From Agarophyton chilense (lineage: Eukaryota; Rhodophyta; Florideophyceae; Gracilariales; Gracilariaceae), in NCBI GenBank assembly GCA_030374765.1, contig JARGXX010000086.1, forward strand, positions 930,001 to 994,000: DNA of 64,000 nucleotides, read 5' to 3'. A program made the translations under genes and the position numbers. The notes under the pieces were generated by a model. It made no database searches. It saw nothing but the letters and a program-made list of their open reading frames with translations, and had not been told where the DNA came from. Below, in pieces: positions 21,930-53,255 of the stretch. How positions within the stretch are numbered: the stretch's first letter is position 1; every line of letters starts with the position of its first letter.

Positions 21930-21970
21930 ATGAGGGAGCCCCTAGGGGGTCGGGACTAGTCGATCCCGTA

Positions 21971-30149: not shown

Positions 30150-30202
30150 CGCAATGACTGGTAGGTCAGCGTTCTGGTCTCGACCGAAGGTAGCCTACGT
30201 CT

Positions 30203-30220
30203 GTGTTCTCGGAATGCTAG
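30203..30220 (+). repeat. P2 left terminal inverted repeat
   Basis: Perfect 18-bp inverted match to 48,901-48,918. The subterminal region just inside contains GCTAGTTTTG (30,238), a word family also found inside the right end. Confidence 0.85.
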
Positions 30221-30451
30221 ATAAGTGTGCTAGATAGCTAGTTTTGTAAATAAAAAGCCAAAAAATCTAAGAATTTTGCAGATTGCGCTAGATCGGCACC
30301 TGAAAAAAAAAGTTTTGGAAAAAAGAACTCCATGCATCTTAGTGTTTTGACCACTTAATGCAGTTTAATCTGCATTTGCAGTTTACTGGTCACTTTTGAC
30401 CGCTCTAGGTGGAGATCCATACCAAGGCAGTCGTCAGTACCTTCTACCTCA

Positions 30452-30952
30452 TTACTGGCCCTTTTGCTTACTATGCTCCAGCGTTCCACCGAGAGGGTAT
30501 TTGAGGTTGAAGAAGTCCACCACCGCATTCTCAACCTCGTCCACCTCCCCACTGCTCAAGTTCCTCACACCCGGCAGCCCCACCAAACACACATTCCCAC
30601 CCTTCTTCTCCACATCCTTACCAACCCTCCTGTTCTTCAGCCGACTCTCTCCAACTCCTCCCCCTTTCCATTCCTCTCTCCCCTTCTTCATCCCAGCCGG
30701 CTCCCCGCGTCTCCCTGGCGTCACCGGGGACCCTTTCGCTCTCCCCCTCTCCTCTCTCACCTCCTTCAACACCTTCCGCGAACCCCAAATCTCCCCCACC
30801 CCTTCCATGTGCACTTCCAACACTTTCACACGCCTCTTCAGTTCCTCATTCGCCCTCCACAGCTTCCCCATCTCCAGCCCCATGGGGATCCGCTCGACAT
30901 CGCCAACGCCCGCGAAAGCTATCGACAAGAGCCACCGCAAGCGCAAGCGCAC
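30452..30952 (-). CDS. Coiled-coil protein of unknown function
   Basis: A 166-codon frame, or 143 codons if it starts at the MGLEMGKLW methionine (30,883). A heptad-like segment LWRANEELKRRVKVLEVHM is followed by a basic Gly/Lys-rich linker and a small folded-looking end (NVCLVGLPGV, then VENAVVDFFNLKYPL). A coiled coil followed by an 'xxxGLPxx...FF' module recalls LINE ORF1-type proteins, but this is only a shape resemblance. The opposite strand also has a long frame that looks low-complexity, so I prefer this strand. Divergent from the reductase-like gene. Confidence 0.4.
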   Translation of the reverse strand: MRLRLRWLLSIAFAGVGDVERIPMGLEMGKLWRANEELKRRVKVLEVHMEGVGEIWGSRKVLKEVREERGRAKGSPVTPGRRGEPAGMKKGREEWKGGGVGESRLKNRRVGKDVEKKGGNVCLVGLPGVRNLSSGEVDEVENAVVDFFNLKYPLGGTLEHSKQKGQ

Positions 30953-31494
30953 TCACCTTAGTGCGGCCAGTAGTACCCGCAGCCTCCCACACAGCACCCC
31001 CCCTCGAAAATCTTCTCCCCCACCTCCGGCCTTTTATCTCCTTTTTTTGACCCGCTTTTCGCGCGCGCTCGCCCAATTTCAGTACCCTCGTACACCCCTG
31101 CATCTACGCTCCGGATGCCCTTCACCCCACTCATTGCTCACTCACACACTCCCATCCATATTCCTACACCTTCTATCATGTTCAGCGCTCCCTCACTACT
31201 CCCAATTTCATAGCCTTCTCATTTATAAAAAATCACACTCATTCGTAACACAAACCGCCGATTACTCATAAGCCCTCTTTCCCGTTATGACTTCCATAAC
31301 AACACACACTCCTACACTTTTAACACAATAAACACCATTCAATATCATAAATCTAACCTCCTTCCCAAAAACCCCTAACACCCATTCCTCCACAACCATA
31401 CTCCTTCTCTATTTAATCACATCTCCACACTCGCCACCCCCACCACTTCTTCAATTCCAAGCACACCGCACTCCAAACACCTTTCGCAATCACC

Positions 31495-32319
31495 ATGACC
31501 AACTCTCTCACTGCCATCCCTTGCACCTCCGACCCAGCCGTTATTGTCGGCAGAGGCCGAATCGGCACTTTGCTTCGCAACAACGGCACCCCACAAGATG
31601 CTTGTCTCTCAACTCAAGAATTCATCTCCGCGCAATACATCCCCGACGGCCCCATTTTCTTCTGCGGCAGAAATCATTCACTCGAAGACGTCATTCAATT
31701 CTGCCCTTCCTCCCGCAGAGAGGATCTGGTCTTCCTTCAGAACGGAAACATTCTCCCTCTTCTTTCAACCTATCGGCTCCAAAACTGCACCAAAGCCGTT
31801 CTCTTCCTCGCCGTCCCCTCCCTTAACGCACCCCCCGAGGACGGTGTCACCCTCCTCAGTCCCCATGGTCTCACAACTGCCACCGGTAAATGGGCTCCCG
31901 CACTCGCCAATCGCCTCAGTACCGCAGGCCTCACTTGTCATGTCGTCGACCAGCCCTCCTTCTCTAAAGCGTACTACGAAAAACTCGTATGGATATCAGC
32001 TTTTAATCTCGTCGGCTCCTCTTATGGCTTTATCACAATGCACGAAGTTGCAGTACAACACCGCACAGTCGTTTCAACCATAATGAAAGAGCTCCTCTCC
32101 ATCGTCACATCCAAAACAGGAATCGCCTACAATACAACAGAAACACTCCAAAAACTTCTGGCCCACGGAAAAACACTTACACAGTTCCCCACCTCGTTCT
32201 CAGACGTTGAGTTCCGGAACGTCTACTTCTACAACGTTTCTAACGCCCAAAAAACCATTGGAAACCGTGACCCCGCTCCTTACCATACGAACTTCTTGAA
32301 CGTCCTCCTCAATGGGTAG
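31495..32319 (+). CDS. Ketopantoate reductase (ApbA/PanE)-like oxidoreductase
   Basis: A 274-aa protein with an N-terminal Rossmann nucleotide-binding loop G-R-G-R-I-G at residues 19-24 (VIVGRGRIGTLL) and a helical C-terminal domain. The latter has the KLVWISAFNLVGSSYG block (near residue 161), where the ketopantoate reductase family has its catalytic Lys and substrate Asn. A start with good context (CACCATGA) follows an AT-rich TATA-like TTATAAAAAA at 31,221. Family members reduce 2-oxo acids with NADPH, classically in pantothenate synthesis. Whether this one does is unknown. It is a single intact ORF carried inside a DNA transposon, which is unusual. The sense strand is strongly C-rich, in line with its side of the element. 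Confidence 0.65.
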   Translation: MTNSLTAIPCTSDPAVIVGRGRIGTLLRNNGTPQDACLSTQEFISAQYIPDGPIFFCGRNHSLEDVIQFCPSSRREDLVFLQNGNILPLLSTYRLQNCTKAVLFLAVPSLNAPPEDGVTLLSPHGLTTATGKWAPALANRLSTAGLTCHVVDQPSFSKAYYEKLVWISAFNLVGSSYGFITMHEVAVQHRTVVSTIMKELLSIVTSKTGIAYNTTETLQKLLAHGKTLTQFPTSFSDVEFRNVYFYNVSNAQKTIGNRDPAPYHTNFLNVLLNG

Positions 32320-32734
32320 TACTTCATTCATATACCCCTTCCATTAAAAACAAGTCCTCCTTTCTAAAGCATATGTCCATCTCCTTCGCTGCCTCGGTAA
32401 AGACTGCTATCCGCACGACACCACGTCAGAATATATGAAACGATATTAAGAATTGCTTCGTACATCACAAATCATCACTACAACCACTCTTCATAAATCT
32501 TCCAACTTTGCAATTAAGTCTGTACCCAATACCCGCTCCTACAGCCTATCAAAGGTTTTCATTCATAACAATTATTCATACTCCGCGACAGAGATACGGC
32601 AACAACCTAACAACTACTTTGATCACTACATATATATATCCACCGATGACCACCCTACTTCATTGCGCTCAACATACTGTATCCAGTCCCTCACAAATAC
32701 CTTTCTACACAACACTCTCCTCTCCTTCTCAAGC

Positions 32735-33079
32735 ATGCAGCGCTACGAAGCACGTCTTTCCCTACCCCCTGGTTCTTCTGTCCAATGCTCAGCAGCTGTG
32801 GATATTCTTCCACAACGAACGGTTATCAACATCGACGAAGTCCTTCAAATCAAACTTCCAACCACCCAGAATGTGGTCGAAGTCAGAGGGTTCCAGAATC
32901 ATATCACCAACGAGTTAATGGACGAGATTCGTGACATTTGTAAGACCACCAGGAGGCTCCTCACTCGCAACTCCCTACAGCAGCAAGATACTCTGAAACA
33001 ACTGTTCAAAGAGCGGTATCATATCGTTACCTATGTGCAGTGTACAAGGAAGACTAGCAAACCGGAACGCCTTGACTAG
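32735..33079 (+). CDS. Small protein of unknown function, 114 aa
   Basis: The same frame is open from 32,453, but the likely start is MQRYEARLSLPPGSS at 32,735, about 95 bp after a TATATATATATC-like stretch (32,628-32,641). The C-terminal half is helical and charged (ELMDEIRDICKTTRRLL, then QQQDTLKQLFKERYHI). No domain is recognised. It lies between the reductase-like gene and the membrane protein on the same strand, so it probably belongs to the cargo set. Confidence 0.4.
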   Translation: MQRYEARLSLPPGSSVQCSAAVDILPQRTVINIDEVLQIKLPTTQNVVEVRGFQNHITNELMDEIRDICKTTRRLLTRNSLQQQDTLKQLFKERYHIVTYVQCTRKTSKPERLD

Positions 33080-33173
33080 GATGTTCAGTTAGCAAACATT
33101 CTTCACATCGACCTTAACGTTCACAATCACACTAACTACACTCTTCGGAGTTATAGACCCAGCTCTGCAATAT

Positions 33174-33920
33174 ATGCTTCCATTCAGATTCAACTCTCTC
33201 CTTCGGTTCATTCTCATAACGCTATTGAGGTGTACTATCCAAAGCCTGCTACACATTCTCATAATCGAAGGAGGCGTACAATGTATAAACGCGTTATACG
33301 GATCTCTACAAACTACGCCGTTCAATCCAAACCAGCGATATACCTGGAAGAAACGAGCCTTTCTAGAATTCGGGGCTCTACTCCTTACTCTACTCATCCC
33401 CCTCAACGCCATACTTTTCCTCGTTCACCGCTTCATTCCAGTCAGCGGTACCCTTTCATCAGACGTGAAAACAAATTGTATCGCCTTCTCCACAGGAGGG
33501 GCCGCAGTTGGCGCTTGGGCATATCTTCTCCAGCTTGTTTCTATATCCTTCTTTCCAGAGTCCTATCTTAACACAAAGTTCACAATGACCCCGGAACCAC
33601 GGAGAACCTCTTTTATGAACCTCGTGCTTGGCGCGCTCTCCCACTCTTTTCAACAGGCTTTATTCATATCCAGTCTGGCTGTAACCTTCCGACTACTCGG
33701 CATGAGGCTGTCGGCATGCACTTTCGCTGCACTCTCTTCAACTGCCTTCTCCATCTCTCGCATTGAGGGCCCTGGTGTTCCTATACTGCTTGGTAACACA
33801 GTGGATGTCGTAATCTTGATATCTTCGACAGTTGTCATTCACTATGAGAAATTGAAAGCAGGTGCTACTCTCACGCGTTTCAATCCAGTTGTTCAGGAGT
33901 TTCTACTTAAAGACAACTGA
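33174..33920 (+). CDS. Multi-pass membrane protein, 248 aa
   Basis: Several hydrophobic stretches are visible: FILITLLRCTIQSLLHILII near the N-terminus, FGALLLTLLIPLNAILFLV, GGAAVGAWAYLLQLVSISFF, then ALFISSLAVTF and VDVVILISSTVVI. This gives about five membrane spans joined by short loops. The tail after VVIHYEKLK is polar. I do not recognise the family; it could be a transporter-like or intramembrane enzyme scaffold. It is convergent with the large gene ending at 34,002, with 80 bp between stop codons. Confidence 0.5.
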   Translation: MLPFRFNSLLRFILITLLRCTIQSLLHILIIEGGVQCINALYGSLQTTPFNPNQRYTWKKRAFLEFGALLLTLLIPLNAILFLVHRFIPVSGTLSSDVKTNCIAFSTGGAAVGAWAYLLQLVSISFFPESYLNTKFTMTPEPRRTSFMNLVLGALSHSFQQALFISSLAVTFRLLGMRLSACTFAALSSTAFSISRIEGPGVPILLGNTVDVVILISSTVVIHYEKLKAGATLTRFNPVVQEFLLKDN

Positions 33921-34001
33921 TCACTATTACAAGAAAAGGGGACTACTCCACATATTACCTCAAATTGTACTCTTTATTGTTCAATAGGTAACAGATACTA
34001 T

Positions 34002-37000
34002 CTAGTCGTCGTCGTCATCCATTATCATACCGCCGTCTTCATAGTCTCCATCTGTGTTAGCCGAGTTGAGACCCATCCCAGGTTCATCATCCTCTTCTTC
34101 ATACTCCTCTTCCCCACTTTCAACAACTTCCATTTTATAATCTTCATCCAACTCCTCATCCTCATCTACCTGGACGTCTTCATCATCACCCTTGTTGGAA
34201 TCATCCTCTTCGAACTTAGGCCGAAATGCTGGTTGCCTATGCACTGCGTCCGGTAGCTTGTACCCATCCGGTACCAAGTACATGTGATACCTCATGCAAA
34301 CTTCCTTAACCAATGCATCCTCGTATCCAGCTCCAGCATGAAACACATCTCCTCTTTCAATAAAAATGGAGTACGGCGGAATCCTGAACTTCCTCACTAC
34401 CATCGTCCGAGACAGCCGCTTCAAGCTCCTGTCGTCGGGCACGTACATGTTATGTGACCTCTCACAAACCCAAAGCATAAACGAACTCGCTCCCGACGCC
34501 ATCATGAAGAACCCTGGAACCTCTCCGACGTTCTTCTCGGCATCGGTCAGTCCTCGAAAGTCCGTATGTAACACCTGCCTTGGACAGCCCTCCGCCGTAC
34601 ACAGCACTCGCCCCCCTGTTTCAGGGGCATACATCCTCTTCTTCCCCGATCGGTTGTTGCACAACCGAAGAGCGGCCGCAATCTGTCCAAACCTCGCATC
34701 CAACAATGCCCTTTTCCTCACCATTAAAACGTTGTTCTCGTCCCCCTCCACAGAATCCACAATCCCCACCTTCGTCGTAATGTACCGCCCAACTCCCTTC
34801 ATTCTATCTCCAGCGTCTCTCTCCTCACCAGCGTTGATTATAGGGTCCCATTTCTTTCTATTCCCTTCAATCGTCAAGTCCGGCTGGTTCAAGAAATCCG
34901 TCTGGAAGAACTCTAGCAAAGTCCCAGTCACATCCCCATCGAAGTTTACCCCCCTCTTCTTCGCCTCATCCGCCATCCCCTCGTCCGTGGCAAACTCTTC
35001 CAGCACACAAAATCCTTTCTCCATCAGCTCACTTCTCTTAGTCGCGAAGTACTCGCGGGCCAAGTCATCCCTCTCCATTGCTGCCATCCATATCGCCTGC
35101 TCTTCATTCACAGGGTGGTCCTTCGTCGGTAGAATCACCCCAAGAACCGGTTCTTTCGTGGAACCCAGTTCCTTGTGCCTGTTATGAGCAGCACGCCAAT
35201 AAACCGCATGGTGCACACTTTTCAAGTCTTCTACCCTCAAGCACTCCGCCCTGTGCTTGTTCCGTAGGTAAATCATCTGCATCCAGAGGTGCTGATGCTT
35301 CACTCCATTTTCACCCGCCGGCCACTCGCTCGGAAGTGCATTCACCAAGTACACCCACGACATACCCGACCCCCCCGCATACGGTCCCGCCCTCTTCAGC
35401 CCCTTCGGAACACCCTCCGGATTATTGTCTTCGAAGCCACGCATTTGCACACCTTCCTCCTCTTCGTCCCCTACAAATGCACCCTGCCCCCCGTCATCAT
35501 CCAGTTCATCCTCACTCGATGAGAAAACATTGAGTACATGTTCCTTCAAGAAGCGCTTCAGCTCTTTCCTGCTCATCTTCTTGAACACATCCACCACGTC
35601 AGCCGGTATTTGAGCCGCAGATGTGCCCACCGTCTTTCTCCTCTTCCTCTTCCGCTTTAAAGGCTGTTCATACTCGCGTTCATCATCACTAATGACCACA
35701 GCCTTTCTCTTCCCCTTTCTCTGTCTAGGTTCCATCACCCTCTCACCCGCAGCATCCAGCCCGCGCTCAGTACCTTTTCTAGTTCGTGTGATGCGTCTGG
35801 GAACCACGGTTTCCTGGTGGGGTACAGACTCCCCAGCACTAGACGAAGGAACATTCACAGAAGGTGGCACCTCCACCACATCCTTCTCCGCACTTGGGGA
35901 CGCCAGACTCACTTTCAGACCGCCTTCAATCCGCCTTTGTGCGATTTTCATCCTCTTCGACACCAACCCCGGCCACAACCGCTTCGGACCACTGAGCTCC
36001 ATCTTCGCCGTTTGCATGCAAAGGTACTCCCTTAAAGACACCTCGTTCTTTCCCATCACAATTGTGCTGTCTAGAACCTTCCCCGCCGTCAGACCCTTCT
36101 CCTTTCCCGCCCTTTCGCATAGTTGGAACATTCCTATGGCGCATTGGAAGAACTGCTTTCGCGTCTCCTGGAAACGTCCCATATTCCCCGTAGAACCCAT
36201 CCTCACCCTCACATGTAGCTGCAAACAACGGATTGCGAAACGGAATATTTCGTCTTCGAGTCCTAACAACAAGTCACTCGACACATGCGCAAGCGTTAGC
36301 ACTGGACCCTCCTTGCATACGTTCTCAAAGAACTCCAGGAGACCTTCGCTCCTGACGAATTTCAACCCAAGAGTCGCATAGCGATTCAAGTGGCGCAAGC
36401 TGTAGATTCCTATAGCTTCGCTCGTCTTCAGCGCCCCAGCTATCCGTGTCGGAGTAAGGTCAGCCAACTTGGTTCTCTTATCGTCAATCAAGTTGCAAAT
36501 GAAGGACACTGTCGAATGAACCTTGTCGGCGAAACTCATCTTCAACACATTTGAACTCATTTCATTGAGTACATTACCAAGACCGAGCACTTCGTTCAGC
36601 GATAAAGGCTTCCGGTCCTTGCGTCTCCAAAGAACGACATCAAGAGACCGCACAATTTCCAACCACTTTCTCCCTTCAGAGGGATCATTCTTCAGATCTC
36701 GCAGAACCAAGACGCGGTGATGACCGTCAATGAGTATGACAGGCACCACTACCCTCCCATTGTGAACAATTTCACTGAAATCTAATTCCATTCCCCCGAC
36801 GATGGCAACAGCAATCGACCCTGCCGACGCAAGCCAGCCAAACGTTTTGCACTTTGCCATCGTCGCCGCCTTGTGTTCCGCATTCACACTTCTGACAGTC
36901 TTCTCGGGGATTTTTATGTCATCTATGTCCACAATCAAGCGGCACTGGTCATAGTCTGAAACAGAGATCTTTTTTTCCACGAGAGTCCTATCCACTTCCT

Positions 37001-37688
37001 GCGAAGGAACGGCATCGCCGTCACCGAACAACTCCAACTCGGGACCGGTGTGCGAATCCCCGCGTACATTCACCGCTGACCCCACCTCCACAACATCTTC
37101 ATCAGAATCATCCACTATCGTCACCCTCTTTTTCGGCTTGACGGGTTGCTTCATGGCCGGCGGCACTGTTGTTGGCTGTGCCCTCTTCCCCCTCAAAGGC
37201 GTAGCAGACTCCTTCGAGGGGGTCGCGCTTTTGGGAGTCTCCGGCCGAGGAGGCCCTGGAGTCAGCACAGAGGAGACGCGTGTCATCATCGAGGTATCCC
37301 ATGCGTATATACCTGCCGACACCATATCCTTCAGCAACTCCGGCGGCTCCTCTGCTCCCTTGAAGGAGTACGGATACTTGGAGTTGATCCCCTCCTTAAT
37401 TTCAGTCCTCCAGATGGCCACCAAGTCCTCTCCCGGCTTCGCAGACTCGCGCAACGAATGGCCATGCATCGCTCTGCAAAGCGCCTTCCCGGCCGCTCCA
37501 CTGCCCCCAACACCTCTCAACTCCGCAGTGCCAACCATAGTACCCTTCTTCTTCCCTGTCCCATCCGCCAGGAACAACGCCACCCTATCCCCACCAGCCA
37601 GATTGTTTCCCGATGTAGCTTTTCGCGGAGTGGCGCGTGGAGTACCCCGCGGAGTACCCCTCGCTTTCGCTTTGCCTCGAGTCATCAT
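34002..37688 (-). CDS. ParB-like domain fused to a probable 2OG-Fe(II) dioxygenase, 1,228 aa
   Basis: In order: a basic Thr/Pro/Arg-rich start; a ParB/Srx-like domain at about residues 250-355, with LIVDIDDIKI opening it and VVVPVILIDGHHRVLVLRDL around 313-332 (the DGHHR nucleotide-binding turn is at 321-325); a helical region with a ParB-type LSLNEVLGLGNVLNEM; a long linker with nuclear-localisation-like KRKRKRRK; and a C-terminal domain with HTD at 1041-1043, GDVFHAG with His 1117, and RYHMYL with Arg 1133. HxD...H...R is the iron and 2-oxoglutarate site of the dioxygenase superfamily that includes the JBP/TET DNA-base oxidases and AlkB. The last 70 residues are highly acidic. Single intact exon. 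Divergent from the methyltransferase-SET gene across the palindrome array. The likely role is to bind and oxidise nucleic acid or chromatin; substrate unknown. Confidence 0.65.
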   Translation of the reverse strand: MMTRGKAKARGTPRGTPRATPRKATSGNNLAGGDRVALFLADGTGKKKGTMVGTAELRGVGGSGAAGKALCRAMHGHSLRESAKPGEDLVAIWRTEIKEGINSKYPYSFKGAEEPPELLKDMVSAGIYAWDTSMMTRVSSVLTPGPPRPETPKSATPSKESATPLRGKRAQPTTVPPAMKQPVKPKKRVTIVDDSDEDVVEVGSAVNVRGDSHTGPELELFGDGDAVPSQEVDRTLVEKKISVSDYDQCRLIVDIDDIKIPEKTVRSVNAEHKAATMAKCKTFGWLASAGSIAVAIVGGMELDFSEIVHNGRVVVPVILIDGHHRVLVLRDLKNDPSEGRKWLEIVRSLDVVLWRRKDRKPLSLNEVLGLGNVLNEMSSNVLKMSFADKVHSTVSFICNLIDDKRTKLADLTPTRIAGALKTSEAIGIYSLRHLNRYATLGLKFVRSEGLLEFFENVCKEGPVLTLAHVSSDLLLGLEDEIFRFAIRCLQLHVRVRMGSTGNMGRFQETRKQFFQCAIGMFQLCERAGKEKGLTAGKVLDSTIVMGKNEVSLREYLCMQTAKMELSGPKRLWPGLVSKRMKIAQRRIEGGLKVSLASPSAEKDVVEVPPSVNVPSSSAGESVPHQETVVPRRITRTRKGTERGLDAAGERVMEPRQRKGKRKAVVISDDEREYEQPLKRKRKRRKTVGTSAAQIPADVVDVFKKMSRKELKRFLKEHVLNVFSSSEDELDDDGGQGAFVGDEEEEGVQMRGFEDNNPEGVPKGLKRAGPYAGGSGMSWVYLVNALPSEWPAGENGVKHQHLWMQMIYLRNKHRAECLRVEDLKSVHHAVYWRAAHNRHKELGSTKEPVLGVILPTKDHPVNEEQAIWMAAMERDDLAREYFATKRSELMEKGFCVLEEFATDEGMADEAKKRGVNFDGDVTGTLLEFFQTDFLNQPDLTIEGNRKKWDPIINAGEERDAGDRMKGVGRYITTKVGIVDSVEGDENNVLMVRKRALLDARFGQIAAALRLCNNRSGKKRMYAPETGGRVLCTAEGCPRQVLHTDFRGLTDAEKNVGEVPGFFMMASGASSFMLWVCERSHNMYVPDDRSLKRLSRTMVVRKFRIPPYSIFIERGDVFHAGAGYEDALVKEVCMRYHMYLVPDGYKLPDAVHRQPAFRPKFEEDDSNKGDDEDVQVDEDEELDEDYKMEVVESGEEEYEEEDDEPGMGLNSANTDGDYEDGGMIMDDDDD

Positions 37689-37978
37689 TTGAATCGGATC
37701 GTAGTCGGTCGAGGTTGCAAATGGTCGCAGAGCGCTTTGAGCCTTTTATGGTATACAGACTAAGACGTATTAGATCGAGCTCCTTTGGTGGCGACTATCC
37801 GGAACACTCCCGAGAGCAGTTCGTTGCAATCAGCCTGAACTACGTCCGCTTAGTTTCAACCTGAGCTACGTCCGCTTAGTTTCAAACTCAAGAAACTCCT
37901 TGTCTCTTTCCATCGCAAACACGCCTATTGGCTTGGTAGGCGATACAAGAAAATAAAATTAAAAAATTAAAAATATCC

Positions 37979-38795
37979 TGACGGCCGACAGAGGTGCGCT
38001 CCGACTTCATCGGGACCCCCGATGAAGTCCCCGCGCACCTCTGTCGGCCGACATAATACATATAATTTTGTAATTTTTGGAACGCTCAGGTGTACACGGT
38101 GCACTCTGTCGGCCGACAGAGGTGCGCTTCGACTTCATCGGGGGTCCCGGTGAAGTCCCTGCGAACCTCTGTCGGCCGACATAATACATATAATTTAGTA
38201 ATTTTTGGAACGCTCAGGTGTACACGGTGCACTCTGTTGGCCAACAGAGGTGCGCTCCGACTTCATTGGGGGTCCCGATGAAGTCCCCGCGCACCTCTGT
38301 CGGCCGACAGTTGACCAACATCTCAGAAACGCATCATGCGTGATGTTATGGCGTATTTGTCGGCCGACAGGGGTGCCCTGCGACTTCATCGGTCCACCGA
38401 TGAAGACGCAGCACACCCCTGTTGAGCGACAATGGACCAACATGTTGTAGGGACACCATTCGGGCCATTTGTGGGCCGCTAGGGGTGTGCTGCGACTTCA
38501 TCGGTGGACCGATGAAGTCGCAGGGCACCCCTGTCGGCCGACAAATACGCCATAACATCACGCATGATGCGTTTCTGAGATGTTGGTCGACTGTCGGCCG
38601 ACAGAGGTGCGCTCCGACTTCATCGGGGGTCCCGATGAAGTCCCCGCGCACCTCTGTCGGCCGACAGAGTGCACCGTGTACACCTGAGCGTTCCAAAAAT
38701 TACAAAATTATATGTATTATGTCGGCCGACAGAGGTGCGCGGGGACTTCATCGGGACCCCCGATGAAGTCGGAGCGCACCTCTGACGGCCGACAG
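37979..38795. repeat. Nested palindrome array: seven palindromes inside one large palindrome
   Basis: Seven units of about 72-76 bp (37,979; 38,107; 38,235; 38,359; 38,470; 38,592; 38,720) are each an inverted repeat. Their ends are the 10-bp palindrome GTCGGCCGAC and their centres ACTTCATCGG...CCGATGAAGT. Spacers are also mirrored: the TAATACATATAATTTTGTAA spacer after unit 1 is repeated after unit 2 and appears reversed before unit 7. The CGCATCATGCGTGATG spacer before unit 4 is reversed after unit 5. The dyad centre is near 38,450, between units 4 and 5, and the left arm has one extra unit and spacer. It fills the promoter gap between two divergent genes. Candidate roles are a replication origin, a partition or nucleation site for the ParB-like protein, or a shared operator. 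Confidence 0.9.
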
Positions 38796-38967
38796 AATGC
38801 AACCAGGATAGCTGCGAAGTCGTTCCGCAACAACCGTTCTTCCGTGCGCGCTCCTCAACCGTACTCACAATCTTTCCGTACCCACCCGCACCCACCCGCA
38901 CCCGCTGCTCTCTTTCACTCAGGCTCTCGTGACGACCGCCCGTGAGGTTGTTTGAACATGTACATAA
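38796..38967 (+). promoter_or_regulatory. Leader of the methyltransferase-SET gene
   Basis: This gap contains a short CCCACCCGCACC tandem near 38,883 and runs to the ATG at 38,968. Together with 37,689-37,978 on the other side it is the only non-palindromic DNA between the two divergent genes, so both promoters must lie here or within the array. Confidence 0.35.
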
Positions 38968-41900: not shown

Positions 41901-42078
41901 AAATGTTCGGGTCATCAGAACTCCGGGGACGGGGCGGACCCCATTTCAGTTGAGAGACTATAGATTGCTTTCTGTGCAAGCAATTCGAGATATAGAAATA
42001 GGAGAGGAGCTGTTCGCGGATTATGGGACAGAGTATATCTGGAGTATGAATAACACGCCAGTCATAGTAATCGATTAA
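38968..42078 (+). CDS. DNA N6-adenine-type methyltransferase fused to a SET domain, 1,036 aa
   Basis: A novel N-terminal domain (to about residue 370) contains a basic RKRRKR cluster near residue 196 and is followed by an acidic linker. The methyltransferase has the catalytic motif DPPY at 511-514 preceding the S-adenosylmethionine motif DLFAGTFSTA at 708. This circularly permuted order is typical of N6-adenine/N4-cytosine enzymes of the bacterial N6_N4_Mtase family. A SET domain follows, with GVGVYTTRRVIQGE (from 862), the GGTIND pocket segment and GEELFADYG (1012-1020), as in histone lysine methyltransferases. One protein could thus mark both DNA and histones. Single intact exon. A degenerate relative lies at 26.0-27.2 kb next to P1, so the gene belongs to the P family and is not a chance capture. 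Confidence 0.85.
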   Translation: MAPEPTRTSSSPAADTFEMGKLFGTGDEVIRACLDLRDRYASTRREEDEPRKVGHTAFIDFAIANRHILPETAKFFYTLLGPDHTNYTEDELRVVGMRGSNCQNYFSARLLDIRDGDPDRRVRDFWNAYEAVEFKGIPKNVTLTEFFKGLDTTRKKASKSRAPFATDFPTMFQRLLFLICIQSVSMEKRRVSRKRRKRDRTYDTPFSKVAIYDKPVAQRVGFGVQLVNNAWDSFAQYLGFPGVEFMVLPFIHLRYSDMQFQAIGNRRDGFSHKDMAQRLLPGRNRTLLEEDVVPWAWNLPEYVDTPLRMLAKEFLADLHKVVVNEQLYSISAPERWDVLKPFTYTLPRVFAERFDCFSNSLISTISEYISPLKLRGSVEVEVVAATKAEPTMVMEEDEIEVVPPEKDSEAPAVEGGEGVEGGTGNEEENMGVGQHSSTAGPRSVESESVDILPPHDLTSLDDIMSLQKCESEMDKHCRMYNCTFENLVEIDETLRSNGVSPIGKVQLVLTDPPYNIRAKKNRKNSWYDVLNRQDMVKTAKLISKLLRPGGHFVIFCAIEQVNEWKEVLGRIGAKDENGQKSRSFVVDKVQLHFIRSQGNPMRNPGRSSCSLFPGTEYAIHGVRSGLSYAEQHGMVNYENFSYVPSRYPGYHSVIDQVPPMSNGETLLWRRKNAKGAVTYQKVRAEQKSRALLKELISRFSQPGDIVVDLFAGTFSTAMACMELEKHRQFLGCEPDPQCFAHAKHAATVKFASCMRNNETDIHITQDVRNAVTRVTCLFPDVVIKRSKSWKTPTGFPEHQMFPPHIVDFLSSMWQDKNISEIGRRQALYEWPRSFQGKMSLLDWNAILAVEATVCGCRIANAGVGVYTTRRVIQGETVCYFYGTLVYHNLSKRKEVHKAYGGGLLKATADRFRQYAMEISVRGEVFHKLPGRISGVSLIPVWIVPAPFCLGGTINDPKYVEGDRDRDAVEDGLMRRRTANVRVIRTPGTGRTPFQLRDYRLLSVQAIRDIEIGEELFADYGTEYIWSMNNTPVIVID

Positions 42079-42402
42079 AAGTGCATCGCTTTTGTTACTT
42101 TACTTCATTGTAGTGTACCAGATATTGTGGGCTTTTACTATGTTTGTCGCTACATATAACGTCAAAGCGTGACGTAGTACATATGCTAAAGGAAAGTCAT
42201 GTACACCGAAGGAGAATACTTTCCCAATATCTGGTGCGTTCGAGCGCATATTTAAAATATCTGAAAAGTTTGGGGGTTTTCTGAGAACACGAAAAGGGTG
42301 GAGGTATATTTTTGGAAGCAGAATGTTTCGAAGCTTCTCTCCCATCCATCGCATTGCAACGCGTGGAAGACCATACCACGATCGCTCTCTCTCTCTTCAA
42401 CC
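42079..42402 (+). promoter_or_regulatory. Intergenic leader before the partner gene
   Basis: 324 bp, AT-richer than its flanks, with a CTCTCTCTCTCTTC run just before the ATG at 42,403. No further motif is recognised. Confidence 0.3.
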
Positions 42403-45056
42403 ATGGCTCCGAAGCGCAAATCGAGAAGCGAGAACACTAGCGGGCGCGGTACAAAATCACGGCGGCATGGAGGGGATGCGGAGGGCGGAAGGGACAAGGG
42501 GCGTAGGCTCCAGGGCGCGAGTGGAGAGAAGGGAGGCGTGCGCCTGAGAGGTAGATCAAGGCAAGATGGTGGGGAAGGAGAGGCGAGTGGGGGCAAAGGA
42601 AAGGCTGTTCGCGCAAAGGAGACGGTGACGGAGGAGAGTGCGGAGCAAATCACGTCGCGTACGGAGCAAATCACGTCGCCTACGGGAGAGATGGTGCGGA
42701 GCGGCGATGGAAAACGGGATGGCGTGCGAAGCAACCGCACGCGTGTACCTAGAAGTGGATTGCGGGGGAGGGCGAGCAGAGCTCCAGGGAGGACAAGGAG
42801 AGGGGATGCATCCGAGCGGACTCTAAGTGCTGTACTCACGTCTTCAGCTGATGTGGAGCCGGTAAATCCATGCTCTGCACCTGAAGGAGGTGAAGAGATT
42901 CCGAATGAGAGGACGAAGGGGCGTAAGGAGGGAGAGAGAATGATCGGAGAACGTGGATCCCGCCTCAGAGGCGTTGAAGAAGCAGGGGCATCGTTTACGG
43001 GTATGAGGGAAGAGGACGGTGATGATGAGATACAGAAAGGGAGAATAGAGAGTAGCCGTGGTGGGGAGGGTAGAATAGGTGGACCCAGTAGTGGTCTAAT
43101 CGCGGGCGCAAGAGTCGTTCGAGAGAGAACAGAAGGAGAGAGTGTTGGAGTTACCGCGGGGGAACAGGCGGAAAGATGGGAGGGGGCGAACTTGGATTAC
43201 GTGGAAGAAAGGAGAGAGCGTGCAAGGGAAAGAATGGGGAGTGTTCGAGTTACAGGAAGAAGAGCGATAGACGAAAGGGAAAGCAGAGAAGTGCATGTGA
43301 GTGAGGGGGGGAGAAGGGGGTTTGCTGGAGGGAGAACACGTGGTTCAGGGGAGGAAGGCGATGGAAGAGCAGCAGTTCTTTCTCATCAGGGAGAAGATGT
43401 CGAGCGTTTGCCACCGAGGAGAGGGGGGGTTTGGGAGTTTAAGGGTTTGAGGTGAACGCAAGGCGAAGGACGCCGGAAGGTATGCAAGTAAGGAGAAACA
43501 TTGTATTCACAAGGAATAATGATAACGGGGAGAATGCGAATTTAAATGTCGTGGAGAACGCCGTCCGTATAGTGGAAGATGAAGCAAATGATGATGACAT
43601 AGGTTTGTTGCCGCGGTCGATGCTAATTGAGAAGATGAATGTGTTGAAGGGACAAATGGGACGTATGAAGGAAGACAGCTACAGTGTGATGGTGAGTTTG
43701 AAAATGACCCAAACGGAGCTGGATCGGGCGAGGGAGGAAATGAAGCAGCAGAATGTGCTGATTGAGAGTTTGAGGGAGGCGTTGAAAAGTAGAATCGCTG
43801 GGGAAGGGAGGGGGGAGGGAGGCGTGACGCGGCGACGAAAGTATGACATTGGAGTGCAGGAATGCTTTTATGGATTTGCACGTCGTGTGTATGATAGGAT
43901 TCTTCATTATGCAAAACTGGAGGCATCGGAACTTTGCTTCGACACCGAGAATGTGGGTCGAAGCTGGAAGAATAGAAGTGAGGCGGTTGGGGAGAGTAGG
44001 GAGGAAAGTATGTTTGTGGTGGGAGAGAAGGAAATGGTTCCGAGATGTCCAATTGAGGTTGCATATGAGATGAGACCGTATACGCCGTCGACAGAGGGCG
44101 GGAGCCATTTGTTGTTGAAGCACGTGGTAGAGACTGAGTTAATGGGAGAGAAATGGGAGTCGATAAGGGAAGCGGGGAGGAGAGAGGAGTGCGTGGAAAA
44201 TGTAAGTGCGGATAGATGCTTGAGACAGAGGATGAAGCAGACATTGAGCGATGTGGTTGGGGTGCGGAAGCGAGCAGCGCGTGATAAGCTGTTTTCCATG
44301 CTTGGATATGATTTGATCGCGAAACGAGCTAAGGTGACTGAAGGGACGGAGCTTTGGGCGGAGTTGAAGAAGCAGATTGAGGAGGCGCAGGAGAAGTTGA
44401 TGGGGTCGGGGGAGGATGGGAGAGGTAAGCTGTGTGCGTGGAGAACGAGTGCGATTGAAGATATTACTTATTCTGGATCGAAGGTGTCTGAGAACTTGGA
44501 GGACTTTGGTGAGGCAGATATGTATTTTCGAAATCAGGTGTCGTTGAAAGTGTTGGAGGAGTTTATGGGCTACGCGGTAGAGAGTCACAGAAATGGAGAA
44601 AGGCAGTATGTGGATGGGACGGTGATGCATCTTGCGCGACTTGATGCATGGATTGGATGTGTGGTGACCACGATGGATAGAGACGTTGGGCGGGGAGGCC
44701 AAAGGCAACTTTTGTTCTCGACGCTGTTTGGGAGGTTTCTGCCACTGGCTGTTGAGGACATATTGAGGGTTGCCTGGAACATGGTGAAGGATGAGTATGC
44801 TGAGGAGTTTGAGAATGATGGATTCTGTGGAGGGAATCGTAGAGATGTGAGTGGGAATAAGGAGAGAATCGCGACGGTTGGGCTATGGATACCGTCGAGA
44901 GAGAAAATCTATCTGGCGATAAGGGAGGAGTTTTTCATGGAGAATCTCACGAGAAGACTTGGAGCGGTGTTAGATTGCTATATAGCGTCATGTGGACCAG
45001 AAGAACCACGGTTCAAGCGCTTAGCGTTGGGGAGTAGGCAAGGAGTGGGAGAGTGA
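42403..45056 (+). CDS. P-family partner protein, two exons inferred (about 832 aa)
   Basis: The start is MAPKRKSRSEN in an ACCATGG context. A first frame runs to 43,455 and a second, overlapping, frame runs from 43,443 to 45,056. They join in phase if an intron lies at 43,297-43,451 (GTGAGT...TTTGAG): 298 codons precede it and 534 follow. The N-terminal half is Arg/Gly/Glu-rich and disordered. A coiled-coil-like segment follows (QTELDRAREEMKQQNVLIESL), then a conserved folded half with TLSDVVGVRKRAARDKLFSM and IYLAIREEFFMENLT. The conserved half is found again in P1 in the same place, convergent with the transposase (87 bp between stops here). The role is probably in transposition or DNA binding. 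No known domain. The acceptor lacks a pyrimidine tract, so the exact splice is uncertain. Confidence 0.6.
43297..43451 (+). other. Predicted intron in the partner gene
   Basis: The donor GTGAGT and the acceptor AG at 43,450-43,451 connect the two overlapping frames exactly in phase 0. Without splicing, the two halves would be separate overlapping proteins with only a GTG or a later ATG to start the second. Confidence 0.45.
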
Positions 45057-45143
45057 TAAGGTACGGGGGGATAAGGGGGTAAGGAGGTGGAGCAAGATGG
45101 GGGTCGGCTATGGAAGAAAAGCAGCGGTGACTATTTTATTGGA

Positions 45144-48100
45144 TCATGTGCCTTGGGAGGTATTATTATGGGTGCCACCCAGTGGTGGTGTTGTGCCACC
45201 AGTGGTGGTGTTGGAGAAGTAGGGCTTGGCAGTTGGGTCTCGGTAGAATCTGTTGAGGTAAAATCGATGGAAGCGCCAGTGCAATCGAGGGGTGAAGGGG
45301 GGTGCGGGGTAGTTTTGGCGAAGTACATGAACGGGGCCGAGAATGGAAGAGGATGGTACGAGGCCGAACCAGGGGGAGACGTTGTCGGAGTTGGAAGTGT
45401 TTGAGATAGGAAGGGGGTGGGCGGTGTGGTTTTGTTCGTCGTCTGTTGCCCATCGGAGGCAGATGCAATTGAGAGAGACATCGACTTGATCCTGGGGTGG
45501 AACGAGTTCGAGGAACTGAACGAAGGCGAACTCGTTATGAGTGGAAGGGGAAGAAGGGGTGGTGAAGCGAAGAAGAGAGTGGAGCTTGCAGACCCAGGCG
45601 GTGGGAGTGGGGTTGGAAAAGCTGGAACCGGCAACGAGGATGTGGGAGAACTTTGGGGTTTTAGAGGGACCGAAGGAGGGAGCAGCGAAGATACGTTGAA
45701 TGAGTGGGAGAGGGGGATCTTTGACGGCGAGCTCGTTTCGATCGGCGATGTAGTCGTCTAGGGTTGGGGTGAAGCCGCCGACGACGTATGCGGAATTGAC
45801 GAATGTGAGACGGGTTTGGCGGAGAGTGGGGGAGTTCTGGTTGAGAGCTAGTGTTTCGAGTGTGAGTGTGACGAAGGAGGGGAGTGCGAGGGTTCCAATC
45901 TGTGAGATGATGGCGATAGTGTCTGGGGAGAAGAGGTCCTGAAGGGAAGAGATTGTTGAGTGGGGGGTTGCTCGAAGGAATTTGTGAGCGGTGATGAGAT
46001 CGGAAAAGGAGGTGTGCTTGCCATTACGGACGAAACCTGGTTTGCGGGCTTGGAAGGGAGGAGGAGGGGCATGGGAGGATGAGGTGACGGAAGGATCAGC
46101 GGAGAGAGAAATCCAATTGCTGACGGCATCGGAGCGTTCGATGGCACGAATGGTTTCGTTGTGCGCGGTGGGTCTGCGCTTGGGGGTTCGGGAGTAATGT
46201 GCTTTGAAGAGGGTATGGGCTTGTTTGAAGATGCCTGCATCGTTGAAGTGGAGACCCCCAAAGCGTCGAATGTCGTCTACGATGTAATCGAGGAGGTGGA
46301 ATTTGAGGGTGCCCAGGTTGGAGGTATGGTATGGACCGAGAACATCGACAGCTCTGTGCTTGAAGGAATGGATTTGGGAGGCGAGTTTGGCAAGACGAGA
46401 AGTGGTCCATTCGGGGACGGAGTTGTAGCACATGGAGGTGAGGAGGAGGTCTGTGTACTTGGAGAAGACAGTTGTGATGGGAGCGGAATTGGCTTCGTCA
46501 CAGCAGCGGTCGAAAAAGGCGCCGATGAAGGGGAAGACCATGTCGAGGGCGCGGTAGTCTTTTGCTTCTAGCATGCCGCGGACGCCGTCAGTTGTGAAGA
46601 AGCCGTTGAGGGACCGCCCGCTTTCGGAAGTAGAGAAGTCGATGTGGAGGCCGGTAGCTGGGGAATGATTTCCGATGGCGGTGAGGATGAAGTGGGACTG
46701 CTTGAGGATGAAGGTGCGGACGGAGTGGAAGGAACGGCGGGAGTTTGTGGAGCTGATGGTGGTGAAGAGGTGTTCTGATCTGAGACGTTCGATGGCGGCG
46801 AGCTTGATGAGTTTGGAAACGCCGAGGTGGAAGTTGTGGAGTGGTTCGAAGGGGAAGATGTTGTATGGGGTGAGGAGGGGGGTGATGTTGAAAAGGGGGT
46901 AAGACTCGAAGAGGGAGGGGTATTTTGCGAGGGAGAGGGAGTGGAGTGCTTGGAGAGCTTGTTCCTTGAAGTTGCGCGAGACTCTTGGCTTGCGGGCGAG
47001 GAGAGCTACTTCGGAGTCCTTGAGGAGAGAGAAGTGTTTGTTGCGGGCTTCAAGGGTGAGGGGAAGAGATCGAGGGGGATGGGCGTGAGAGTGTTGGTGG
47101 AGTTGTGAGCGAGGGACAGAGCATCTGTGGCAGGGGTGCTGGGGGCGGGTGCCGTGGGAGATGGCGAGAATATCCTTTGCCTCGGGAATGTCTGCGCAGT
47201 AGCTGGCGATGATGGGGTGGCATTGACGAAGAACGCCGTCTGCTTCGCGGAAGGGGAAACCGGGGAGGGCGGAAGAGAAGAGAGGTTGAAGGAGGGAGGA
47301 GATGGTCTGCTGTATGAGTTCCATTTTTGTTTGGCGGGGGATGGAGGAGGAATGAGTGATGATATCTGCATCTGGAGAAGGAGTGATTGGGATGAAGGAG
47401 GTGGGAAGATAGCCGAGGAGTGTGAGATTGTCGGAGATGCATTTGGGGTGAAAGGAGTCGGAGAAGTTGAGAAGGGTGATGTGGAGGGGGTACGAGGTGA
47501 TGGAAGAAGATTTGAAAGAGGTAGAGGACTTGTCGGAGTAGATTTGGACGAGGCCGATGAAGAAGTCGATACCGATGGAGTGAGGGAGATGCCAGACGAT
47601 GTTATCTTTTGTGGACTGCATGATGGCGGTCTTGAGTGCGGGGACGACTTTTGAGCCAAGGGTGGCTGCCATGGGGTGTGCGAAGGCGGGGGAGCCGGAG
47701 GCGGATGTTTGGGAGATGGGGTGAAAAAAGATGTTCTTGAAGTGTGCGAGGGCGAGCTGTTGTTTGAGGACATGGATTGCGTTTTTCTGGAAGAGGGTTG
47801 CGGAGAAGCGTTTGTGGGGATCGAAGATGGTGGAGGGGGCGAAACCAATGGACCTGATTCTCTGGTGGAAGAGGTCTGCCTGGAGCTCAAAGCATTGCTT
47901 TGCGGAGGAGACTGAGTTCCGGAATGTTGATTCGGAGAAGTGGGGATCATTAAGGAGAGTGATGAGTTCGTCAGCCTTTCGTTGTCCAAGCTTGGAGGCG
48001 ATGGAGGAGATGTAGAGGACCATTTTCTCCAGGTGGGGGTTGTCGAGGGGGGGAGTGGAAGGAGGGAGGGGGGAGAGAGCGAGAGAGGAGGGGGAACCGA

Positions 48101-48407
48101 GAGGGGCAGTGGCGACGTAGATGGCGTCCTGGGTGTGGAGGGAGAGAGAGAGCTGGTCTTCGAGACAGGAGTCATGGTGTGCGAGAGGGACGTTATCGGA
48201 AGGGCGATGTGAGGGAGGAGGATGAGGGGGGAGTTGTGAGGTGGACTTGTGGCGTTTTGTGCGGGGGGGGAAGTTGGGTTCATTTCCGCCAGGGGAGAGG
48301 AAGCGCTTGTTGACGGAGAGGCGATGAGGGCACCTTCTCTGGTGCCGCTGGAGGGCGGGGATTTCTCGGGCGAAGAAGGAGCAACCGTTGAAGCAGCAAA
48401 AAGGCAT
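45144..48407 (-). CDS. P-family transposase, intact, 1,087 aa (Plavaka/KDZ/CACTA-like)
   Basis: The start at 48,407 (MPFCCFNGCSFFARE) places a C2H2 finger at the very N-terminus (C-x4-C-x12-H-x5-H). An upstream in-frame methionine at 48,530 would add 41 residues before the finger and is less likely. Family-type blocks are LAISHGTRPQHPCHRCSVPR, FPFEPLHNFHLGVSKLIKL and LGTLKFHLLDYIVDDIRRFG. Together they resemble the large Plavaka/CACTA and KDZ DDE transposases of fungi and other eukaryotes. I do not assign the catalytic triad. The protein would cut the 18-bp termini and move the element. Convergent with the partner gene. The sense strand is C-rich although the opposite-strand partner gene is G-rich, so the bias follows the DNA strand, not the gene. 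Confidence 0.8.
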   Translation of the reverse strand: MPFCCFNGCSFFAREIPALQRHQRRCPHRLSVNKRFLSPGGNEPNFPPRTKRHKSTSQLPPHPPPSHRPSDNVPLAHHDSCLEDQLSLSLHTQDAIYVATAPLGSPSSLALSPLPPSTPPLDNPHLEKMVLYISSIASKLGQRKADELITLLNDPHFSESTFRNSVSSAKQCFELQADLFHQRIRSIGFAPSTIFDPHKRFSATLFQKNAIHVLKQQLALAHFKNIFFHPISQTSASGSPAFAHPMAATLGSKVVPALKTAIMQSTKDNIVWHLPHSIGIDFFIGLVQIYSDKSSTSFKSSSITSYPLHITLLNFSDSFHPKCISDNLTLLGYLPTSFIPITPSPDADIITHSSSIPRQTKMELIQQTISSLLQPLFSSALPGFPFREADGVLRQCHPIIASYCADIPEAKDILAISHGTRPQHPCHRCSVPRSQLHQHSHAHPPRSLPLTLEARNKHFSLLKDSEVALLARKPRVSRNFKEQALQALHSLSLAKYPSLFESYPLFNITPLLTPYNIFPFEPLHNFHLGVSKLIKLAAIERLRSEHLFTTISSTNSRRSFHSVRTFILKQSHFILTAIGNHSPATGLHIDFSTSESGRSLNGFFTTDGVRGMLEAKDYRALDMVFPFIGAFFDRCCDEANSAPITTVFSKYTDLLLTSMCYNSVPEWTTSRLAKLASQIHSFKHRAVDVLGPYHTSNLGTLKFHLLDYIVDDIRRFGGLHFNDAGIFKQAHTLFKAHYSRTPKRRPTAHNETIRAIERSDAVSNWISLSADPSVTSSSHAPPPPFQARKPGFVRNGKHTSFSDLITAHKFLRATPHSTISSLQDLFSPDTIAIISQIGTLALPSFVTLTLETLALNQNSPTLRQTRLTFVNSAYVVGGFTPTLDDYIADRNELAVKDPPLPLIQRIFAAPSFGPSKTPKFSHILVAGSSFSNPTPTAWVCKLHSLLRFTTPSSPSTHNEFAFVQFLELVPPQDQVDVSLNCICLRWATDDEQNHTAHPLPISNTSNSDNVSPWFGLVPSSSILGPVHVLRQNYPAPPFTPRLHWRFHRFYLNRFYRDPTAKPYFSNTTTGGTTPPLGGTHNNTSQGT

Positions 48408-48900
48408 GGTGCGTGGAGGAGAGGTGGTGGGAAAGAAGTTGGTAGGGGAGCGTAGACGGAGAGAGAGTATGGCGCACGCAGGGCACGTGACAGGGGAGGG
48501 CGGTGGAGAATAATATAGAATGCAAGGCACGTGAGGTCTGCCAGGTCGGGCTGCGATTCTATTGCGATTGATATGGATGGTACTAAATGTTCAATTTATA
48601 TTTTGAGGTCCATTTTGGGACCGGTTGTTTGTACTAATCTGTCAATCTAGAGCGCACAAAGATTGAATCTGCTCCTGCACCACTTCTCTACTTTTACCTT
48701 TAAAGTGCGGCGACAGAAAGATTCACGCTAGTTTTACCTCCATCAAAACTAGAAAAACTGCAGATATGTGCTAGTTTTCCTTCCCATACAAACTAGCACT
48801 AATGAACGAATGAAAATATTTTCGGAAATTAACACCTCCAAATTTGGATAAAATCTCGGGTTTTTCGGTCATTTCAATTCGTGCTTTTTTGACCACTGAA
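48408..48900. other. P2 right leader and subterminal repeats
   Basis: No protein is seen. It contains the paired words CTAGTTTTACC...CAAAACTAG (48,731-48,755) and GCTAGTTTTCC...CAAACTAGC (48,773-48,803). CTAG words of this kind recur inside the other P termini. Confidence 0.5.
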
Positions 48901-48918
48901 CTAGCATTCCGAGAACAC
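48901..48918 (-). repeat. P2 right terminal inverted repeat
   Basis: Perfect 18-bp inverted match to the left end. Inside it, 48,731-48,805 holds two folded CTAGTTTT...AAAACTAG pairs that may be transposase binding sites. Confidence 0.85.
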
Positions 48919-49400
48919 TGACGTACTAGAGCAGGTCCTAAGGTTCGAATCCTTGACGGCGGCATTCCCAGAGTACTTGGTGCAATGGGCTCGCGTTTAC
49001 TGCGTAGTCCTACAAGTCGGAGCTACGGAAACGATGGATTTTAGACCATTGGTGGAACTAATCAACCAAAAAGAGATATTTAGTATCCTAACGGTGCCTA
49101 CCCTACTCTAAGAGAGAAACGTCACTCGAGCCAAGTAAATAGCAATGGCGAGGCGCTGGGATCTCCCTGGAACTGTAATGCTAATCTATTAAACTAATTA
49201 AAATAAAAAAATTATCTAAATGAGTCCAGGTGAGGTCGGCCAATCCACGTAGCGTCTGTAAGATACATCATGCCCCGGCAGCTTACAGGACTCAACCGTT
49301 ATATATACTCGTTCACATATGTCCCTCCATGGGATTCGACCTTCAGGGCGAAGTCCAGATTGCCTCAGGATTGACCAAGAGGACCTGAGCGCCTAGTCGC
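48919..49400. other. Flank right of P2, no gene recognised
   Basis: Neutral base composition. A box-B-like GGTTCGAATCC lies at 48,943, but no tRNA fold is found around it. AT-rich stretches lie near 49,190 and a TATATATA-like run near 49,302. Confidence 0.3.
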
Positions 49401-53237: not shown

Positions 53238-53255
53238 CGAGGCAAGGAAGAAGGC

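Follow-up and report, generated by a model that had tools for sequence, protein, structure and literature searches.

A DNA transposon of 18.7 kb was found in the genome of Agarophyton chilense (79.8 Mb, 135 contigs), within a stretch of 64,000 nucleotides of contig JARGXX010000086.1 (C86, positions 930001-994000), which was analysed at its whole length and is called the window below. There is hardly any doubt that this is a Plavaka-type (CACTA-like) DNA transposon, present in the genome in dozens of copies. Along with its transposase (P3), it carries two divergent genes, one encoding a protein with ParB-like and oxygenase-like parts (P1) and the other a fusion of a DNA methyltransferase with a SET domain (P2). 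Other transposons are known to carry one epigenetic enzyme each; in this element there is a matched set, composed of P2 as a predicted writer fusion, its ParB-like-oxygenase partner and a candidate binding array. In our opinion, the best explanation overall, in which we believe about as much as we doubt it, is a Plavaka transposon with a self-marking cassette that may act against silencing. That the cargo is functional seems very probable to us.

The original prediction, made from the letters of the window, had placed the ends of the element at perfect 18-bp inverted repeats. These repeats exist (30203-30220 and 48901-48918) and are the sole matches in the window at up to 3 mismatches (0.04 expected), but comparison of the junctions among copies showed that the true ends lie 5 bp outside them, at 30198 and 48923. 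The terminus is thus 5'-CGTC[T/A]GTGTTCTCGGAATGCTAG, a sequence of 23 bp inverted at both ends with 1 mismatch. Eleven other copies, picked from the match lists of the termini and designated here by the letter c with a number, were fetched for this comparison. For 16 insertions the dinucleotides flanking both ends were read, by eye, and in 14 of them the two are identical. The first set of junctions gave matching dinucleotides in 9 of 11 cases, the exceptions being c2 and c1, and for c71a the fetched sequence contained no right end; in seven further insertions, whose methyltransferase-SET gene is 99-100% identical, both ends were seen in five and the dinucleotides matched in all five. When the flanks were joined with one copy of the duplication, the resulting sequence was found uninterrupted elsewhere for 4 of 10 insertions (c79, c93, c99 and c10), at 59 listed places with 90-99% identity (19 for each of the first three and 2 for c10). 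These empty sites are paralogous, being other copies of the repeat into which the insertions jumped, and they confirm the boundaries of the element. For the other 6 flank pairs, that of the window copy included, there was no uninterrupted match among the matches listed.

Searches of the genome with the ends and with the proteins revealed recurring termini and two more full-length copies. All genome copy numbers are lower bounds, and distant paralogues may be missed. There are at least 40 scored matches of the left end (108 candidates) and at least 40 of the right end (130 candidates), at least 44 loci of the methyltransferase-SET gene (232 candidates; 45 rows, every one at 96% identity or more), at least 37 of the ParB-oxygenase gene (337 candidates) and at least 40 scored loci of the transposase (685 candidates). 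The methyltransferase-SET gene is full length without a stop at 12 loci at least, and no distant paralogue of it was among the matches listed (the best 44 of 232 candidates). A listed terminus lies less than 14 kb away, on the correct side and strand, at 28 of the 44 loci of this gene, with a chance of 0.0035 per locus per list; at the other 16, no terminus was among the matches listed. A right end is listed for 13 of the 44 loci, and in 9 of these it is separated from the methyltransferase-SET gene by 6846-6853 bp. On the other side, a left end is listed for 17 of the 37 ParB-oxygenase loci, 11 of them with a spacing of 3797-3803 bp, and in 25 of the 37 a listed methyltransferase-SET gene is divergent and 476-1744 bp away. 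The recurrence of termini with the cargo, together with the paralogous empty sites, bears out the prediction of a single mobile unit.

Besides the window copy, 2 of the 11 fetched copies are full-length, namely c79 (~97.5% identity) and c93 (94.5-96%). Seven are shorter derivatives of 6.7-15.8 kb; c3a has kept both ends around an interior consisting mainly of Ty3/gypsy sequence, and in c71a the left end is followed by Ty3/gypsy sequence. In the window copy, as in the copies on contigs C10 and C117, the frames of P1, P2 and the transposase are all open (96-100% protein identity). Since near-identical open copies sit at different places, they point to recent activity of the element.

The transposase is intact, as had been predicted, and its match to the Plavaka model PF18759 reaches 72.2 bits at a cut-off of 26.3, with no other Pfam match at E<=1. 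It has a CxxC motif at 487 and an HxxxH motif at 741 (numbering of the 1148-codon frame), along with further H(3-4)H matches, and a C2H2-like finger was recognised by eye at its N-terminus. Membership in the KDZ group (Kyakuja/Dileera/Zisupton), whose elements had been named earlier as a precedent for base-modifying cargo, was rejected on the transposase, which matches Plavaka, a relative of CACTA/EnSpm. Features of the element are collected in Table 1.

Table 1. Features of the transposon in the window (ORF, open reading frame; aa, amino acids)
Feature	Position	Strand	Basis
Left target site duplication (TA)	30196-30197		Same dinucleotide at 48924-48925
Left terminal inverted repeat, 23 bp	30198-30220	+	Between-copy identity starts here
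Coiled-coil-like ORF (by eye)	30452-30952	-	3' part common to longer ORF in c99 and c1
Ketopantoate-reductase-like gene, GxGxxG-type N-terminus	31495-32319	+	Pfam ApbA_C E 0.083, below cut-off
Membrane protein, 3 predicted hydrophobic spans	33174-33920	+	Hydropathy
P1, ParB-like and oxygenase-like protein, 1228 aa	34002-37688	-	Profile comparison and conserved motifs
Seven ~77-bp palindromes carrying CTGTCGGCCGACAG	37955-38814		Between divergent P1 and P2 starts
P2, methyltransferase-SET protein, 1036 aa	38968-42078	+	Pfam N6_N4_Mtase E 3.3e-18 and SET E 8.3e-5, both above cut-off
Partner gene, two overlapping frames (42403-43455 and 43443-45056)	42403-45056	+	ORF frames
P3, Plavaka transposase, 1087 aa	45144-48407	-	PF18759 E 5.7e-20
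Right terminal inverted repeat, 23 bp	48901-48923	-	Junction reading and genome search with the right end
Right target site duplication (TA)	48924-48925		Junction reading

Both domains that had been claimed for P2 score above the Pfam cut-offs, SET with 23.4 bits against 22.4. The protein consists of an N-terminal region without an assigned domain, an amino-methyltransferase (505-742) and a SET domain (862-1020) in which GEELFADY is present. Motif IV, DPPY (511-514), stands ahead of motif I, FAGT (710-713), as in the beta class of DNA amino-methyltransferases. The profile of the P2 family matches chains of DpnA, CcrM and KMT2C in PDB, and its SET part matches chains of KMT2C, EZH2 and KMT5A; the methyltransferase part has relatives among the phage methyltransferases of PHROG 67 (E 2.3e-26).

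Among 8000 scored candidates, 112 relatives of P2 were found (P0009-P0120), one named as coming from Chondrus crispus and one from Pyropia. They make up a large, little-described family of metagenomes and red algae, and no paper on it was found in the open-access literature, which is no proof that none exists. A SET-like motif occurs in the last 160 residues of 63 of the 112; among 60 that were aligned, all have the Asp of motif IV and 53 have the SET Tyr. In 12 of the 112, a DGxH[RM] motif lies upstream of the methyltransferase. Particularly, P0078 and P0116 match the ParB family PHROG 1033 at 6e-5 and 5e-4, and P0068 and P0071 match it weakly (0.014 and 0.093); Pfam SET was also detected in P0068, P0071 and P0078, not in P0116. 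In viral contigs, the P2-family profile A4 has matches at 63 or more loci, only around the methyltransferase part, and profile A3 has none. In prokaryote genomes, 73 of the 74 loci among the matches listed cover the methyltransferase part only. The lone long match of this set (L125) is a 3.5-kb methyltransferase-SET contig in a metagenome-assembled genome of the cyanobacterium Moorena, and, judged by its protein alone, this contig looks like eukaryotic contamination.

The ParB-like domain of P1 occupies approximately residues 270-440, with DGHHR at 340 (here and for the motifs below, numbering of the 1247-codon frame). No direct ParB match was obtained for P1 or for P0006 and P0008 in Pfam, NCBIfam and PHROGs. 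Residues 255-664 of P1 do match a profile of the N-termini of 12 P2 relatives (hhalign probability 95, P 3.9e-8), so the ParB-like label proposed earlier stands, indirectly; as a contrast case, the P1 profile gave no match to the P2-family profile A4. The C-terminal part contains HTD (1060-1062), RGDVFHAG (1131) and RYHMY (1152). This HxD...H...R pattern, resembling a set of iron ligands, is kept in two other full-length relatives (41% and 23% overall identity), the HxD being HTD in P1 and HTD, HSD or HLD in relatives, and we take it to be the pattern of 2-oxoglutarate- and Fe(II)-dependent oxygenases. As regards the other half of the earlier label, dioxygenase, an assignment to the TET/JBP enzymes could not be supported. 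P1 and three relatives have no match to Tet_JBP (PF12851) in Pfam at E<=1, a search that very distant members would escape, and the oxygenase-like part has no TET/JBP match in NCBIfam or PHROGs and no solved-structure match in PDB, bar one chance match to obscurin. It is not a TET of the PE type either, having HTD where that type has HxE.

Some evidence ties P1 to P2 outside this genome. P0006, a relative of P1 (51% in the oxygenase part), and P0010, a relative of P2 (47%), each occur on 4 contigs, the longest of 20,528 bp, and they very probably share one foreign 20.5-kb contig. Elsewhere, a P1-like ParB part lies upstream of the methyltransferase in the same chain, which supports the view that P1 and P2 would belong together. 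The fusions in other proteins likewise support a putative functional link between ParB-like, methyltransferase and SET parts, while the direction of its effect stays an inference. Judging by the relatives of P1 and P2 on a common contig and by the conserved catalytic motifs, function may have been retained over long times.

The palindromes between the two genes form an array with a half-palindrome of 34, compared with 12 or less in 20 base shuffles. The motif CTGTCGGCCGACAG occurs 5-28 times per copy where the region is present and is absent from five copies without a match (window and fetched copies together). The listed part of 506 genome matches was condensed manually to 40 array loci. For 35 of these, some other listed part of the element is found at a distance of up to 15 kb; the remaining 5 have none, perhaps because the listings do not include all matches. 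The array is a candidate binding site of the ParB-like domain, an assignment that is possible and, in our estimate, rather doubtful. In c3a, the array is interrupted by ~794-bp repeats of a Ty3/gypsy element that resemble long terminal repeats (L021 1079-1872 and L021 2981 onward); the polyprotein of this element ends in a chromodomain-like stretch, recognised by eye.

We propose that P1 and P2 may constitute an anti-silencing, self-marking module, a mechanism that we find plausible with doubt slightly prevailing. The ParB-like part of P1 would bind the array and the surrounding DNA of the element and bring in the oxygenase, which would strip methyl marks of the host. P2, a predicted writer of DNA and of histone marks in one chain, would deposit N6-methyladenine and a histone methyl mark. 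These marks would hold the promoters of the element open, and the transposase would be made.

A number of observations weigh against this proposal. Canonical SET domains carry an NH motif, and that of P2 has ND at this position. No family is assignable to the oxygenase-like part of P1 among the models and structures searched. Among the 11 fetched copies, full coverage of both P1 and P2 is limited to 3 (c79, c93 and c88), and in none of these are both genes intact, a stop or frameshift interrupting one of them at the least; a large number of copies transpose, or have transposed, without these genes. Pooled pairwise dN/dS (the ratio of nonsynonymous to synonymous substitution rates) relative to the window copy is 0.5-1.3, near neutral, as calculated from the best single alignment per copy with rows below 90% of the gene excluded. 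Such values are expected of copies that are mostly dead, and they lend no weight to function. Decay of the copies by repeat-induced point mutation (RIP) or at CpG sites was rejected: relative to the next highest context, C>T changes at CpG amount to 0.9x in P1, 1.1x in the transposase and 1.4x in P2. With no strong decay of this kind, the evidence for an attack of host 5-methylcytosine on the element is weak. Finally, ParB-like domains can be nickases or NTPases without a role in spreading (PMC5512222).

The base composition of the element bears on some of the other explanations. At four-fold sites, GC skew on the window strand is -0.81 in the reductase-like gene, -0.33 in the membrane protein gene and -0.50 in P1, and then +0.38 in P2, +0.46 and +0.76 in the partner frames and +0.95 in the transposase. 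Its sign ignores the orientation of the genes, and an effect of transcription was rejected on this ground; it flips near the array and mostly rises outward, the exceptions being the membrane protein gene and some short noncoding stretches. Eight other ORFs of the genome have a coding-strand skew from -0.38 to +0.30, and the values for two ORFs in a Plavaka-like stretch of the window (16.4-17.9 kb) are -0.47 and -0.35. Coding-strand values from -0.59 to -0.83 were obtained for four further Plavaka transposases of the genome, which are 49-54% identical, so that the skew is shared beyond this element. An origin of the skew in resident copies was rejected as well: after normalisation, the mutation spectrum of the fetched copies in their transposase region is symmetric in 5 of 6 pairs, with A>C versus T>G as the exception (z -2.4). 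The skew may be a trait of Plavaka elements or a codon preference of the transposase.

A bolder version of the self-marking idea, which we regard as unlikely, is a phage-like, self-addressed epigenetic operon, in which the ParB-like domain would load at a parS-like array and spread together with the oxygenase, erasing marks of the host, so that the element would set its own chromatin domain from a nucleation site inside it. One P2 polypeptide would then write both DNA and histone marks, and the skew would be what a replicating or single-stranded stage, with its start at the array, has left behind, details in which our confidence is low. The same array and skew could be read in favour of an episome, an excised or replicating form that the ParB-like protein and a parS- or origin-like site would help to persist, with the modifying enzymes serving that stage. 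The seven palindromes between P1 and P2, and a skew that flips near them and mostly rises outward irrespective of gene orientation, speak for it; however, the skew recurs in the four other Plavaka transposases and so is not a property of the cassette, the array may be merely an operator, and the ORFs scanned with Pfam include no recognisable ParA, polymerase, primase or helicase. We consider the episome highly improbable. The two enzymes may also cooperate on the bases themselves, in the manner of phage systems: P2 would methylate the DNA of the element and P1 would oxidise it to a new base shielding it from host nucleases or silencing. This hypermodification is improbable in our opinion, although the methyltransferase and oxygenase genes are divergent neighbours in 25 of the 37 P1 copies, the methyltransferase is related to phage enzymes (the PHROG 67 match given above), a bacterial ParB-methylase is known (PMC5512222) and hypermodification was considered for TET-bearing transposons (Kojima 2025, PMC12730594). 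Against it, no substrate is assignable to the oxygenase-like part, and the ORFs scanned with Pfam yielded neither a glycosyltransferase nor any other enzyme for a further modification. Its extension, according to which the ParB-like part recruits both enzymes and SET adds a chromatin mark, appears to be just as little probable.

Two further explanations were considered. The cargo may be passive, that is, host or foreign genes captured by chance and of no use to the transposon. The near-neutral dN/dS among copies agrees with this, as do the 7 shorter derivatives among the 11 fetched copies, most of them without P1 or P2 yet with ends and transposase sequence. Such a capture is nevertheless very unlikely in view of the putative linkage of P1 and P2 on a shared contig, of the conservation of catalytic motifs in relatives that are 41-54% identical, and of the open and near-identical state of P1 and P2 in several copies. 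That unrelated elements were nested in each other by chance, or that a virus or plasmid was captured, has next to no probability. The region is rich in Ty3/gypsy and CACTA-like remnants, but order and near-equal spacing are kept in independent copies with their own target duplications, which refutes this reading, and no viral structural or replication gene was recognised by Pfam in the ORFs searched.

Preference for a self-marking transposon is consistent with what is known of other mobile elements. The original prediction had relied on KDZ transposons as the precedent for base-modifying cargo. Such a precedent exists, and the closest one is not KDZ but the TET-bearing Plavaka elements, PlavakaB of Agaricus bisporus and Gymnopus confluens (Kojima 2025, PMC12730594). 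Like PlavakaB, the element combines a Plavaka transposase, an oxygenase cargo and a 2-bp target duplication (2 or 3 bp in PlavakaB), and its termini, CGTC[T/A]..TGACG, are similar, not identical, to CATCA..TGATG (PMC12730594). It differs from the PE-type oxygenase with its HxE in having HxD and no Tet_JBP match, and from PlavakaB in the fusion of the oxygenase-like domain to a ParB-like one and in the presence of the methyltransferase-SET gene (PMC12730594); the words ParB and adenine have 0 occurrences in the main text of that paper. KDZ elements with TET/JBP genes are also oxygenase-carrying DNA transposons of fungi, with a different transposase. Kojima also cites HarbingerS and MuDR elements with a SET gene, which resemble ours as DNA transposons carrying SET, and a fusion of SET with a methyltransferase is not mentioned for them in the parts of PMC12730594 used here.

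On the enzyme side, the bacterial ParB-methylase Bce_0392 (PMC5512222) has a beta-class amino-methyltransferase together with a ParB domain, and the phage DNA methyltransferases of PHROG 67 belong to the same class. Neither is part of a eukaryotic transposon, SET is not mentioned for them in the relevant parts of PMC5512222, and in our element the ParB-like domain is in a separate, oxygenase-like protein. The N4CMT of bdelloid rotifers, likewise a eukaryotic protein in which an N6_N4_Mtase of horizontal origin is combined with a chromatin domain, is a histone-read-DNA-write enzyme and as such a precedent for P2 (PMC8885841). It is a host gene product with a chromodomain reader and SPPY, making 4-methylcytosine (PMC8885841), whereas P2 is encoded by a transposon and has a predicted SET writer and DPPY. 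Retrotransposons with cytosine methyltransferases are likewise mobile elements with their own DNA methyltransferase, in that case a C5-methyltransferase (PMC5890265). No report of a methyltransferase-SET and ParB-oxygenase cassette on a transposon was found in the open-access literature, which mostly leaves out subscription papers and so gives no proof of novelty. Several near-identical open copies make the element a natural system for asking whether a mobile element sets its own chromatin state, and for a second question, whether eukaryotes make use of an adenine methylation derived from phage-type enzymes.

The remaining genes of the element are less characteristic. The partner gene of the transposase was predicted correctly in so far as its ORFs are present and open; they lie in two overlapping frames that are probably parts of one spliced protein. 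There are 41 possible frame-keeping GT-AG introns, and no Pfam match above cut-off was obtained. The predicted reductase-like enzyme has an open ORF and a weak label, the Pfam score being below cut-off. Its gene gave 58 genome rows, of which 32 cover at least 272 of 273 residues at 93% identity or more; in addition, 8 rows are repeat-borne relatives with 37-45% identity. A ketopantoate-reductase-like gene, ~40% identical to that of the element, is carried by a separate repeat family (L199, L200 and L201, 98-99.6% identity among the 3 loci). The membrane protein gene, recognised as such from the start, has an open frame in the window copy; of 5 other fetched copies that cover all of it, 4 keep it open. 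The coiled-coil-like ORF has no Pfam match. The left end exists in two versions: in c99 and c1, the coiled-coil-like frame extends (310-315 aa) into sequence that is not in the window, and this longer ORF takes the place of the reductase-like and membrane protein genes.

The transposable elements met in this genome (Plavaka, Ty3/gypsy and tnp2-type) are of a kind that would suggest a mushroom-type fungus. The transposon has inserted into a region with many repeats. It is flanked by a 2-kb inverted repeat (13336-15335 and 55139-57140) with 84-93% identity, and remnants of tnp2-type (Transposase_21) and Ty3/gypsy-type elements lie around the insertion (8306-9403, 20349-26036 and 52311-54173). 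A stretch of 471 nucleotides at 15993-16463 matches, in inverted orientation and at 70%, the part of the transposase at 46464-46934, and the sequence near 16 kb is probably a remnant of a related Plavaka element.

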